A program made the translations under genes and the position numbers. Below, in pieces: positions 48,310 through 57,417 of a stretch of DNA of 64,000 bases (its first letter is position 1; each line of letters opens with the position of its first letter). The stretch lies in NCBI GenBank assembly GCA_900537125.1, contig UNRJ01000005.1, positions 124,001-188,000 of the forward strand. Direction: 5' to 3'. This DNA is from Rhodobacteraceae bacterium Alg238-R152. GTDB taxonomy: Bacteria; Pseudomonadota; Alphaproteobacteria; Rhodobacterales; Rhodobacteraceae. The notes under the pieces are model-generated. The model saw only the letters and a program-made list of their open reading frames with translations, did not search any database and had not been told where the DNA came from.

Positions 48310-48939
48310 ATGATTTTCTATGATTGCGCGACAGCGCCCAGCCCGCGACGGGCACGGATGTTTATTGCCGAAAAGGGACTGGAGATCGAAACGCGGCAAG
48401 TGGACCTGCGCAATGATGGCCACCGCGCGCCTGAATTTCTGGCTCTGAATCAACACGGTACGGTGCCTGTGCTGACGACAGACGAAGGGCTGTACCTGAC
48501 CGAGAACATCGCGATTGCAGGCTATCTCGAGGCGATGCATCCGGAACCACCTTTGATGGGCACAACACCGGACGAAAAGGGCGCGGTGCTCATGTGGAAT
48601 GCGATCTGTGAGTTTCATGGCGGCATGTCGATTGCCGAAGCGCTGCGCAATGCCTCCCCTGCCCTCAAGGGCCGCGCGCTGCCTGGAGCTGTCAACTATG
48701 ACCAAATCCCTGAGCTGGCCACCCGGGGCGCCAAACGCCTGCAATTGTTCTTCGCCACATTGGAAAAACGCTTACAAGAAAGCCCTTGGCTCGCAGGCGA
48801 CAGTTTCACCATGGCAGACATCACTGGCTACGTGTTTTGCGACTTTGCGCGAATCGTGAAGATGATCCCACCAGAAAAAAACACCGCGACGCAGGCCTGG
48901 CTCGCCAGAATCGCGGCCCGCCCCAGCGCGCAAGCGTAA
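48310..48939 (+). CDS. Glutathione S-transferase family protein
   Basis: 209 residues. N-terminal thioredoxin-like domain (ATAPSPRRARMFIAEKGLEIE, GTVPVLTTDEGLYLTENIAI) and all-helical C-terminal domain (SPWLAGDSFTMADITGYV). AGGAGG precedes the ATG. Substrate unknown. Followed by a terminator that also ends the small-RNA locus on the other strand. Confidence 0.88.
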   Translation: MIFYDCATAPSPRRARMFIAEKGLEIETRQVDLRNDGHRAPEFLALNQHGTVPVLTTDEGLYLTENIAIAGYLEAMHPEPPLMGTTPDEKGAVLMWNAICEFHGGMSIAEALRNASPALKGRALPGAVNYDQIPELATRGAKRLQLFFATLEKRLQESPWLAGDSFTMADITGYVFCDFARIVKMIPPEKNTATQAWLARIAARPSAQA

Positions 48940-48957
48940 GGCCACCATAAACCCACT

Positions 48958-48988
48958 CAAAAGGCGCTCTTTGGAGCGTCTTTTTTGT
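48958..48988. terminator. Bidirectional terminator between the GST gene and the small-RNA array
   Basis: AAGGCGCTC and GGAGCGTCTT pair around a 3-nt loop, with TTTTTT on the plus strand and TTTTGAG on the minus strand. Confidence 0.85.
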
Positions 48989-49018: not shown

Positions 49019-49087
49019 GCGGCGACATCAGGGAGGAGGAGAGATGTCGCCGCGCTTCACACAAAGCACTCAGGGAGGAGCGAGTGC
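49019..49087 (-). ncRNA. CcsR-type small RNA, unit 4 (distal)
   Basis: Two hairpins on the minus strand. The first (49066-49087) has stem GCACTC/GAGTGC and loop CGCTCCTCCCT. The second (49019-49053) has an 11-bp perfect stem GCGGCGACATC/GATGTCGCCGC and loop TCTCCTCCTCCCT. The loop strings are complementary to the Shine-Dalgarno sequence, the hallmark of CcsR/cuckoo RNAs. Probably released by processing of the upstream DUF1127 transcript. Confidence 0.85.
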
Positions 49088-49127
49088 CTTGATACCGGTG
49101 ACCCCGCGACGGGATCGAATTTCAAGT

Positions 49128-49202
49128 GCGACGGTGCCAGGGAGGAGGAGAGGCACCGTCGCTCTAGTTTCAAGTGCCCTCAGGGAGGAGCGAGGGCGCT
49201 TG
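49128..49202 (-). ncRNA. CcsR-type small RNA, unit 3
   Basis: First hairpin 49171-49202, stem CAAGTGCCCTC/GAGGGCGCTTG with a G-T pair, loop with CTCCTCCCT. Second hairpin 49128-49162, 11-bp perfect stem GCGACGGTGCC/GGCACCGTCGC, loop TCTCCTCCTCCCT. Linked to unit 4 by a spacer hairpin at 49100-49116. Stem bases differ from unit 4 while pairing is kept. Confidence 0.85.
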
Positions 49203-49233
49203 ATACCGTTGGGCCGTTTGGCCCGAATTATGT

Positions 49234-49308
49234 GCGACGACACCAGGGAGGAGGAGAGGTGCCGTCGCTATTTCAAGTCACCCCAGGGAGGAGGAGAGGA
49301 GCAACTTG
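49234..49308 (-). ncRNA. CcsR-type small RNA, unit 2
   Basis: First hairpin 49274-49308 is the weakest of the eight: CAAGT/ACTTG closes it and inner pairs are broken by mismatches, with the long loop form TCTCCTCCTCCCT. Second hairpin 49234-49268 has stem GCGACGACACC/GGTGCCGTCGC, loop TCTCCTCCTCCCT. A spacer hairpin GGGCC/GGCCC at 49211-49224 separates it from unit 3. Confidence 0.82.
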
Positions 49309-49342
49309 AGCTCGTTGGACCGTTCTGGTCCTGTGTTCGCTA

Positions 49343-49410
49343 CGACGACACCAGGGAGGAGGAGAGGTATCGTCGCAGTAGTGGAAGGCCTGAGGGAGGA
49401 GCGGCCTTCC
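49343..49410 (-). ncRNA. CcsR-type small RNA, unit 1 (proximal)
   Basis: First hairpin 49383-49410 begins 6 nt after the DUF1127 stop codon, stem GGAAGGCC/GGCCTTCC, loop containing GCTCCTCCCTCA. Second hairpin 49343-49375, stem CGACGACACC/GGTATCGTCG, loop TCTCCTCCTCCCT. A spacer hairpin GGACC/GGTCC at 49317-49331 follows. Position directly behind the DUF1127 gene is as in Rhodobacter sphaeroides CcsR1. Confidence 0.85.
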
Positions 49411-49416
49411 GAATTC

Positions 49417-49632
49417 TTATGCCTCGCGGCTTGCTTCGATCGCCAAACGGCGGATCATGGAGCGGCTCAGACCCAAGTCGGCCAGTTCGCGGTCAGAAAG
49501 CTGGTTCAGCTCATTGTACGTCGCGCGGTAGACGCGGTACTGACGGAAGCGTTCTGCTGCGCTTGCGAAAAAAACCGAAAGGCCGGGGGCTTTAGGTGCT
49601 GCCACATTGGTATGGTTTGCTACATATGCCAT
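49417..49632 (-). CDS. ccaF1: DUF1127 small protein, CcaF1-like
   Basis: 71 residues. A variable N-terminus, then FFASAAERFRQYRVYRATYNELNQLSDRELADLGLSRSMIRRLAIEASREA, the arginine-rich DUF1127 helix pair. In Rhodobacter sphaeroides the matching protein (RSP_6037, CcaF1) is an RNA-binding protein involved in maturation of the CcsR small RNAs encoded right behind it. The same layout is seen here, with four CcsR-like units starting 6 nt downstream. A heat-shock-like promoter lies upstream. Confidence 0.9.
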   Translation of the reverse strand: MAYVANHTNVAAPKAPGLSVFFASAAERFRQYRVYRATYNELNQLSDRELADLGLSRSMIRRLAIEASREA

Positions 49633-49681: not shown

Positions 49682-49708
49682 ATATAGGGTAATGCTGCAT
49701 CTGCACAA
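49682..49708 (-). promoter_or_regulatory. Candidate RpoH-type promoter of ccaF1-CcsR
   Basis: On the minus strand TTGTGC, 13 bp, then CCCTATAT, which matches the sigma-32 -10 element CCCCATNT in 7 of 8 bases; the -35 keeps only TTG of CTTGAAA. About 50 bp upstream of the DUF1127 start. Confidence 0.5.
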
Positions 49709-49878
49709 TAGCTGGCTTCGCAAAGCAGTTATGCGTCGGGCGAATACCAGACGTTACGTAAAGGTAAACTGCCCAAAAATTAACCAAGGTGCGGAATTGG
49801 TTGAATAAATGTAAACAGATTCTTACGTGGAATCTTTAATTGTGCGCACATTGTGCACTTGCAGCATAGGAGTTGTGC

Positions 49879-50955
49879 ATGTCCGTCAGCAAAGAAGACG
49901 TACAGGAAGTATTGCAAAAAATAGCCCTGCCCGACGGAGGCGATTTAATCTCACGCGACTTTGTGCGCGCATTGAACATTCGCGAAAACACAGTGCAATT
50001 TGTCATCGAGGCACCCAGCCCTGATATAGCACGTCTCATGGAGCCATTGCGCAAAATGGCCGAAGCGGCCGTTGCGAAGATGGACGGTGTCGACTCGGTA
50101 CAGGTTGCATTGACGGCGCATGAGAGCGCCCCTGCGCCCAAATCAGCTCCCCCTAGCCTGAAGATTGGCGGCCACCCGAAGCCTCAAGCGGGACCGATGA
50201 AAGTGGCCGGAGTGGATCGCATCCTGGCCGTTGGATCCGGGAAAGGCGGCGTAGGCAAATCGACGGTGTCTTCCAACCTTGCTGTGGCGCTTGCGAAACA
50301 AGGTCGCAAGGTCGGTCTGCTGGATGCGGATATCCATGGTCCCAGCCAGCCTCGAATGATGGGCGTGAACAAACGCCCAGCAAGCCCCGATGGGAAAACC
50401 ATTATTCCCCTGCAAGCGCACGGGGTTACGATTATGTCGCTGGGTTTCATGTTGGACGACGACAAGCCCGTCATATGGCGCGGGCCAATGTTGATGGGCG
50501 CGCTGCAACAGATGTTGACACAAGTGCAGTGGGGCGATCTGGACGTGCTGATCGTGGACTTACCACCAGGCACGGGCGACGTGCAGCTGACCCTGTGTCA
50601 GAAAACCGACCTGACCGGCGCGATTGTTGTGAGCACACCGCAGGATGTGGCGCTGCTCGACGCGCGAAAAGCCCTTGGCATGTTTGACCAGCTCAAAACC
50701 CCAGTGCTGGGACTCATTGAAAACATGAGCCTTTTCCACTGTCCAAAGTGTGGACACGAGAGCCATATCTTCGGCCATGGCGGGGTGGCGGCGGAGGCTG
50801 AAAAGCTGGGTGTGCCGCTGCTGGGAGCATTGCCAATTGATCTGGATACACGGCTGGCAGGAGACGGCGGCACACCCATTGCCGCCGGAGACAGTGATAT
50901 GGCGCAGGCCTATGCGCAAATTGCCAGTGGGTTGGTGCGGGGCGGGATGGCGTAA
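49879..50955 (+). CDS. mrp: Mrp/ApbC-type P-loop ATPase, Fe-S cluster carrier
   Basis: 358 residues from MSVSKEDVQEV, with AGGAG 6 nt upstream. N-terminal MIP18-like (DUF59) domain to about 85, a proline-rich linker, then a deviant Walker A GSGKGGVGKST, DADIHGPSQPRMMG, VDLPPGTGDVQLTL, and a C-terminal CPKC pair that bridges the Fe-S cluster. Delivers clusters to apoproteins in the cytosol. Divergent from ccaF1. Confidence 0.94.
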   Translation: MSVSKEDVQEVLQKIALPDGGDLISRDFVRALNIRENTVQFVIEAPSPDIARLMEPLRKMAEAAVAKMDGVDSVQVALTAHESAPAPKSAPPSLKIGGHPKPQAGPMKVAGVDRILAVGSGKGGVGKSTVSSNLAVALAKQGRKVGLLDADIHGPSQPRMMGVNKRPASPDGKTIIPLQAHGVTIMSLGFMLDDDKPVIWRGPMLMGALQQMLTQVQWGDLDVLIVDLPPGTGDVQLTLCQKTDLTGAIVVSTPQDVALLDARKALGMFDQLKTPVLGLIENMSLFHCPKCGHESHIFGHGGVAAEAEKLGVPLLGALPIDLDTRLAGDGGTPIAAGDSDMAQAYAQIASGLVRGGMA

Positions 50956-57099: not shown

Positions 57100-57174
57100 G
57101 CGGGCGTAGCTCAGGGGTAGAGCATAACCTTGCCAAGGTTAGGGTCGGGCGTTCGAATCGCCTCGCCCGCTCCA
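57100..57174 (+). tRNA. tRNA-Gly (anticodon GCC), copy 1
   Basis: 75 nt with encoded CCA. Acceptor GCGGGCG/CGCCCGC, anticodon stem TAACC/GGTTA with loop TTGCCAA, T arm GTTCGAATC. Followed by a terminator. Confidence 0.97.
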
Positions 57175-57342: not shown

Positions 57343-57417
57343 GCGGGCGTAGCTCAGGGGTAGAGCATAACCTTGCCAAGGTTAGGGTCGGGCGTTCGAA
57401 TCGCCTCGCCCGCTCCA
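57343..57417 (+). tRNA. tRNA-Gly (anticodon GCC), copy 2
   Basis: Identical over all 75 nt to the copy 243 bp upstream, but with unrelated flanks and its own terminator, so it is a separate transcription unit. Confidence 0.97.

Follow-up and report, generated by a model that had tools for sequence, protein, structure and literature searches.

Spacer mini-hairpins and candidate LsrB/VtlR-type promoter sites at a ccaF1-CcsR-type small RNA locus of a Rhodobacteraceae bacterium

Introduction

The cuckoo RNA family and the CIN1 locus were reportedly described by Reinkensmeier and Giegerich in 2015. Cuckoo RNAs comprise 2-4 hairpins with a conserved loop motif (PMC4504443), and the association of a DUF1127 gene with small RNAs (sRNAs) is labelled the CIN1 locus (PMC10253847); here, as for every PMC accession below, statements are taken from excerpts of the paper. 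In Rhodobacter (Cereibacter) sphaeroides, the ccaF1-CcsR1-4 locus (RF02791) consists of a 71 aa DUF1127 gene, four tandem two-hairpin RNAs with CCUCCUCCC-type loops and a terminator. RNase E frees the CcsR RNAs, a step in which CcaF1 participates (PMC8625941, PMC7866481). CcsR1-4 are called Hfq-dependent (PMC7866481); further facts on CcsR in this species are given in PMC8307010.

Comparable anti-Shine-Dalgarno (anti-SD) sRNAs are described in rhizobia. NfeR1 of Sinorhizobium meliloti (alpha-r14, RF02344) has several hairpins with CCUCCUCCC loops, which block the translation start, and its promoter contains the LsrB motif TGCA-N6-GCAT (PMC10746234). AbcR1 and AbcR2 are anti-SD sRNAs that act on transporter and metabolic mRNAs and receive LsrB and RpoH1 inputs (PMC8844928). 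In Rhizobiales, lsrB is consistently found in an operon with trxB, and LsrB has been called unique to Rhizobiales (PMC11975290).

Here, we analyze a ccaF1-CcsR-type locus within a window of 64,000 nucleotides (the whole stretch of DNA examined, numbered from its first letter) from Rhodobacteraceae bacterium Alg238-R152. The locus shares the gene, the four tandem units, the loop type, a terminator-like hairpin at the end and the gene order (PMC10253847) with R. sphaeroides, whereas its stems and spacers differ and its covariance scores fall below the Rfam cut-off. With the cuckoo/CIN1 RNAs it shares variable stems, fixed anti-SD loops and a position beside a short DUF1127 gene; its spacer mini-hairpin is missing from their description in the excerpt of PMC4504443. 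The upstream motif and the loops recall NfeR1, in which three hairpins form one sRNA. NfeR1 is driven by a sigma-70 promoter and is Hfq-independent; no four-unit array was found in the excerpted NfeR1 description (PMC10746234). AbcR1 and AbcR2 are two tandem sRNAs rather than an array, and their seeds are similar, not identical (PMC10746234).

Results

Identity and context of the locus

The ccaF1-like gene (Table 1) encodes a 71 aa protein that matches PF06568 with 57.9 bits and is 87-94% identical to copies in the nearest relatives; judged from protein relatives, the nearest named relatives of the organism are Shimia. Six bases separate the ccaF1 stop codon from the first hairpin. Behind the gene, the Rfam CcsR1 model (RF02791) gives four tandem full-length matches, one per unit, with 46.4-53.3 bits and E values from 4.9e-12 to 5.5e-10. 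All four scores lie below the curated cut-off of 65.3 bits, and both ar14 matches at the array lie below theirs of 58.8 bits; the locus therefore escapes Rfam when it is run with default settings. An earlier note on this DNA had read it as a ccaF1-CcsR-type locus, a DUF1127 gene followed by four tandem sRNA units, and had pointed to a covariance search as a check. The PF06568 match, the four CcsR1 matches and the identical published order bear out this identity; the search itself returned full-length matches in every unit, albeit under the curated cut-offs.

Table 1. Features of the locus and its surroundings, in window coordinates
Feature	Coordinates	Strand	Details
ccaF1-like DUF1127 gene	49417..49632	-	from the ORF list
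Anti-SD hairpin 1 (unit 1A)	49383..49410	-	short loop GCTCCTCCCTCA
Anti-SD hairpin 2 (unit 1B)	49340..49378	-	long loop TCTCCTCCTCCCT; CcsR1 match 49416-49337
Anti-SD hairpin 3 (unit 2A)	49273..49309	-	long loop
Anti-SD hairpin 4 (unit 2B)	49234..49268	-	long loop; CcsR1 match 49312-49229
Anti-SD hairpin 5 (unit 3A)	49166..49207	-	short loop
Anti-SD hairpin 6 (unit 3B)	49125..49165	-	long loop; CcsR1 match 49206-49123
Anti-SD hairpin 7 (unit 4A)	49062..49091	-	short loop
Anti-SD hairpin 8 (unit 4B)	49019..49053	-	long loop; CcsR1 match 49095-49014
Spacer mini-hairpin 1	49317..49331	-	GGACC-AGAAC-GGTCC, no anti-SD motif; conserved in relatives
Spacer mini-hairpin 2	49211..49224	-	GGGCC-AAAC-GGCCC
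Spacer mini-hairpin 3	49100..49116	-	GATCCCG-TCG-CGGGGTC
Terminator-like hairpin past the array	48959..48984	-	minus-strand site 48978-48965; plus-strand site 48959-48984; consensus scan
-10-like CCTATAT	49682..49688	-	spacing to the palindrome almost constant among relatives
Palindrome ATTGTGCAGATGCAGCAT	49692..49709	-	contains TGCA-N6-GCAT (49705-49692)
LsrB/VtlR-type box GCATAACTGCTTT	49722..49734	-	exact match to consensus GCAT-N3-TG-N3-T
Second exact palindrome copy	49850..49867	+	11 bases upstream of a divergent Mrp/ApbC-like gene (49879-50955, plus strand)

The locus is widespread in its order. At E 1e-4 or better, 342 of 390 sampled genomes carry CcsR1 matches, 12 of the 390 reach the curated cut-off, and all of the matches listed from this sample belong to the window's family. 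Within the window's own genome, no further CcsR1 match appeared at E up to 1 among the 150 candidates scored out of 1544. Across the class, the ar14 model matched 6 of 240 genomes, two of them from the window's genus; no hairpin array was seen at the other four loci, so that the comparison stays within the family. Because the CcsR1 matches, the order-wide presence and the R. sphaeroides order agree, we consider the array to be of the known kind. At the level of sequence, the CIN1 identity is supported by gene order, DUF1127 identity, the four CcsR1 matches, the terminator-like hairpin and the family-wide presence. We put the probability that the locus is a member of the CIN1/cuckoo (ccaF1-CcsR) kind, its anti-SD mode of action included, at roughly 0.85.

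The terminator-like hairpin also faces a convergent glutathione S-transferase-like gene (48310-48939, plus strand), annotated from its GST domains. Elsewhere in the window, two tRNA genes of identical sequence lie 171 bases apart on the plus strand (57100-57171 and 57343-57414). The genome contains seven DUF1127 genes, and at one place three of them stand in tandem (L003-L005; G000 C3 240047-241022), with no CcsR1 match reported there.

Anti-SD hairpins with fixed loops and covarying stems

All eight minus-strand hairpins, from 49410 to 49019, carry CTCCTCCCT in or at the loop. The 4.27 Mb genome has 18 copies of this motif, eight of them inside the array, and 6 of its reversed pattern. The 462-nt stretch has a folding energy of -209.9 kcal/mol, against -135.9 +/- 6.4 in 100 dinucleotide shuffles (z -11.6). 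When 176 non-redundant hairpins from the window and its relatives are anchored on their loops, 1614 of 2112 stem positions (76%) are paired; with one arm slid by 1-3 bases, pairing drops to 37-48%, and several pair types are found at nearly every stem position. We regard this stem covariation around a fixed loop as real, judging from the aligned hairpins. The earlier note placed the eight loop-motif hairpins correctly, and its argument that differing stems stay paired, as covariation would have it, holds against the slid-arm control.

The window's layout recurs across 121 distinct arrays. They were obtained from 129 loci, made up of the best 30 loci by CcsR1, the best 80 of 539 protein relatives and 19 loci of the genus, in which 20 of 25 genomes have a ccaF1 match. 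Drawn as it is from best matches and from the genus, the sample leans towards the window's type, and the hairpin finder requires TCCTCC in the loop, so that variant hairpins are missed. Arrays hold 2 to 17 hairpins, and because the number is even in 94 of the 121, two anti-SD hairpins look like the repeating unit. In Limimaricola, Pseudoprimorskyibacter and Rhodobacter sp. NTK016B (L091, L065, L107, L111), a DUF1127 gene is followed by 12 to 17 anti-SD hairpins. In one genus (g117), two loci (L032, L038) have three to four DUF1127 matches each, and in a further one (L034) a DUF1127 match stands between two groups of anti-SD hairpins.

The loops of the window had also been described as alternating between short and long forms, with unit 2 deviating. 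This is true of hairpins 1-8 in the window (Table 1), but the pattern is not kept within the genus. Among 19 distinct genus arrays, the first hairpin is always short and the others are mostly long; in eight arrays the first is the only short one. The nearest relatives (L125, L126) have a short hairpin 5, as in the window, and a long hairpin 7, while in L140, a genus array with 12 hairpins, short and long loops do alternate, in a phase opposite to that of the window. Given this variation, we dropped the alternation as a functional feature.

A covarying mini-hairpin in the spacers

Each of the three inter-unit spacers of the window contains a small hairpin without the anti-SD motif. The earlier note had set the stems and spacers apart from those of R. 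sphaeroides; both do differ, but the spacers share a covarying mini-hairpin. Among relatives, 282 spacers yielded 250 unique ones after lengths outside 20-60 nt were dropped, and 230 of the 250 form a hairpin of at least 4 pairs, compared with 44% of 474 control stretches. The mini-hairpin begins about nine bases past the preceding hairpin, after a linker with 9% G. RNAalifold returned no structure on the unit alignment (0.0 kcal/mol), its fragments cutting through flanking hairpins, and was replaced by an unbiased pair scan. In a structure-free alignment of 126 units, three nested mini-hairpin pairs covary with z 7.7-8.1, being paired in 118/124, 96/124 and 87/100 units.

These pairs also bear on the possibility that the mini-hairpin is a functionless by-product of the amplification of a GC-rich repeat. 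Units do amplify in tandem, as in one relative with several near-identical units (L014), and the top-scoring column pair of the unbiased scan (columns 48-61, z 8.5) lies outside the mini-hairpin. Against this stand the three nested pairs, which emerge without a structural guide, and the folding of the spacers, which beats dinucleotide shuffles with a mean z of -1.90 versus -0.05 in controls (p 0.05 is reached by 53% versus 6%). We therefore consider a by-product unlikely. Because the covarying mini-hairpin sits in so large a share of the spacers, we describe the repeat as a three-hairpin unit. Alignments to the Rfam CcsR1 model span two anti-SD hairpins only, without the mini-hairpin, which also goes unmentioned in the excerpts of the related literature searched, a set that lies outside the main CcsR, CcaF1 and cuckoo papers. 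By analogy with R. sphaeroides, where RNase E and CcaF1 are involved in freeing the CcsR RNAs, the mini-hairpin may be a processing signal.

Candidate LsrB/VtlR-type sites upstream of ccaF1

A strongly conserved block lies upstream of ccaF1. The comparison uses 104 upstream regions, since out of 122 arrays, counting that of the window, 18 were dropped for want of an identified start codon. The window's LsrB/VtlR-type box follows the published consensus (PMC7486931, PMC8844928) and lies at about -59 to -47 from the start estimated via the -10 element, while the LsrB box of S. meliloti PabcR1 lies at -61 to -49 (PMC8844928). In its strict form this consensus is found in 20 of the 104 upstream regions versus 0.6 in shuffles; relaxed to A or T at one position, the box is found in 71 and absent from 33. 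The 15-base VtlR motif quoted in PMC12595884 is present with up to 3 mismatches in 82/104 regions, compared with 2/1040 shuffles and 0/104 for the reversed motif; the window's own copy has 4 mismatches. The same search also matched 17 of 258 upstream regions of other ORFs in these loci, 12 of which are the shared ccaF1 promoter site and 5 of which are not.

The palindrome downstream of the box contains TGCA-N6-GCAT, which occurs in 77 of the 104 regions (58/77 after thinning) and is absent from 27; the shuffle mean is 0.26, and 2 of 1410 control windows have it. With regard to an RpoHI/RpoHII promoter, the window has the -10-like CCTATAT, and the spacing pattern TTG-N-CYTAT is found in 51/104 upstream regions versus 1.3 in shuffles. 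RpoH patterns with CTTG are not enriched (1/104 each), and a consensus scan found no sigma-70 match at the ccaF1 promoter.

The palindrome might instead belong to a regulator other than LsrB, such as PhaR or an iron-sulfur regulator. The genome has two exact copies of ATTGTGCANNTGCAGCAT, one upstream of ccaF1; the second exact palindrome copy, which reads ATTGTGCA-N2-TGCAGCAT, stands before the start of the Mrp/ApbC-like gene, and an opposite-strand copy is present in 6/120 relatives' loci, all of the window's genus. Besides this second copy, another regulator is favored by the overlap of the palindrome with the presumed -35 region and, in our reading, by TGC-rich sequences near the PHB regulator gene. 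Every letter of the S. meliloti LsrB motif TGCA-N6-GCAT is nevertheless present in the palindrome, and 50 of 104 loci have a second LsrB-type box, situated 25-26 bases upstream of it. We consider a regulator other than LsrB less likely than not. Genome-wide, near matches to the palindrome with up to 3 mismatches number 68 versus 9 for the reversed pattern; in the 30 loci read, genes nearby are mixed and no clear regulon was found.

A candidate for the preferred regulator, LsrB, is encoded away from the locus: an LsrB-like LTTR of 301 aa (L176), for which no NCBIfam equivalog scored above cut-off. In 83 of 142 genomes of the class, its family is matched with an E value of 1e-40 or better. Among the 30 best loci read, 26 have a TrxB motif beside the family member, whereas trxB was not seen within 1.5 kb of the LTTR in either of the genus genomes read, two in number. 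Naming the protein LsrB leans partly on this trxB adjacency and partly on what we take to be the start of LsrB. No publication joining LsrB to CcsR was found in the excerpts of the literature searched, and in that of PMC12501420 LsrB is named in the reference list only.

An LsrB-type box, GCATAGCTGCCTTGC, lies between a peroxiredoxin-reading ORF and a divergent ORF at another locus (L205 1501-1515), a position that would fit an oxidative-stress regulon. Self-immunity of ccaF1 through a weak SD was considered but found no support, as the ccaF1 leaders pair more strongly (mean energy -4.77 versus -4.09); GGAGG itself is found in 0/104 ccaF1 leaders versus 25/340 control ORFs.

Candidate target genes

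GGGAGGA, the sequence exactly complementary to the loop core UCCUCCC, stands 3-9 bases before an ATG at 98 sites genome-wide, versus 5 for the reversed pattern. We read 96 of these sites, leaving out an overlapping duplicate and the complement that lies in the array itself. ORFs of 60 aa or more begin at 78 of them, and the 18 sites with shorter ORFs were dropped. By Pfam, solute-binding families (ABC/TRAP) make up about 27-32 of the 78 products, a range of our own as family counts can overlap, whereas a set of 78 random ORFs gave at least 2, and two more solute-binding matches in that set go with LacI regulators. The tallies stop at the 25 most frequent of 93 and 148 families, which may leave single-member families out of either set. 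Signal-peptide-like starts are found in 33/78 GGGAGGA ORFs versus 8/78 random ORFs. Set against other ribosome-binding sequences, the figures are 31/73 for GGGAGGA, 3/19 for AGGAGG, 5/46 for NAGGAG and 4/68 for weak SDs; the comparison with AGGAGG gives p 0.036 on a small AGGAGG set.

The list also includes a pyruvate-dehydrogenase-type E1 subunit, CO-dehydrogenase-type subunits and a molybdopterin oxidoreductase, for which pdhA, cox or formate dehydrogenase would be our reading. The gene set is in line with published CcsR and NfeR1 targets as excerpted (PMC8625941, PMC10746234). GGGAGGA starts could also reflect something other than CcsR pairing.

Two other roles for the loops have to be weighed here. 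Firstly, the loops might compete for the SD sequences of all mRNAs and so form a general translation brake with no defined target class. They do contain CCUCC, which we take to be the anti-SD core of the 16S tail, and relatives have up to 17 hairpins per array; such a brake is nonetheless improbable in our view, as the loop reaches past CCUCC (CUCCUCCC) and its complement GGGAGGA marks a gene set that is skewed relative to other strong SDs. Secondly, the array might act chiefly as a sponge that takes up a protein, CcaF1 or Hfq for instance, with the loops as protein-binding sites. Many near-identical loops lie within one transcript, and CcaF1 of R. sphaeroides is an RNA-binding protein with a part in CcsR maturation (PMC10253847), but NfeR1 loop mutants lose target silencing where predicted base pairing is lost (PMC10746234), and we hold a sponge to be very unlikely.

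Discussion

Our best reading of the locus is a redox- or heat-induced sRNA array that would block translation of uptake and C1 genes. The gene, the hairpins and their covariation, the spacer hairpins, the motif matches and the loop complementarity are directly visible in the DNA, and from these we infer transcription, processing, LsrB binding and target repression at the locus. Blocking or titration of ribosome sites and CcaF1-aided maturation, both put forward in the earlier note, would carry over from relatives by analogy.

In the mechanism we propose, a single stress-induced transcript would comprise ccaF1 and four two-hairpin CcsR-type sRNAs and end at the terminator. An RpoH-type sigma factor would probably govern its transcription, jointly with an LsrB/VtlR-like LysR regulator acting at the two upstream sites. 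The transcript would then be cut in the G-poor linkers between units, probably by RNase E helped by CcaF1, and each released RNA would expose two CUCCUCCC loops that pair with G-rich SD sequences and block translation. Favored targets would be mRNAs with GGGAGGA starts, which encode ABC/TRAP solute-binding proteins, pyruvate-dehydrogenase-type E1 and C1-type dehydrogenases.

Extended to the Rhodobacteraceae as a whole, the array may be an output of LsrB/VtlR redox control, through a switch common to rhizobial AbcR1 and NfeR1. It would be built from three-hairpin cassettes in which the mini-hairpin marks the cut, and its GGGAGGA-tuned loops would shut solute uptake and C1/pyruvate oxidation together under stress. 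Taken jointly, these propositions form a tentative reading to which we give somewhat less than even odds.

The ccaF1-CcsR locus itself is standard equipment of its family. To this the comparison adds three testable points of moderate interest: the spacer hairpin and, as likely features, a redox switch and a set of target genes. If the processing reading is true, the spacer hairpin offers a concrete candidate site for cutting of the array by CcaF1 and RNase E. If the regulatory reading is true, LsrB would extend beyond Rhizobiales, and the work on CcsR and CcaF1 in Rhodobacter and that on LsrB/VtlR, AbcR and NfeR1 in rhizobia, which run separately in the literature searched, would describe one conserved stress circuit.
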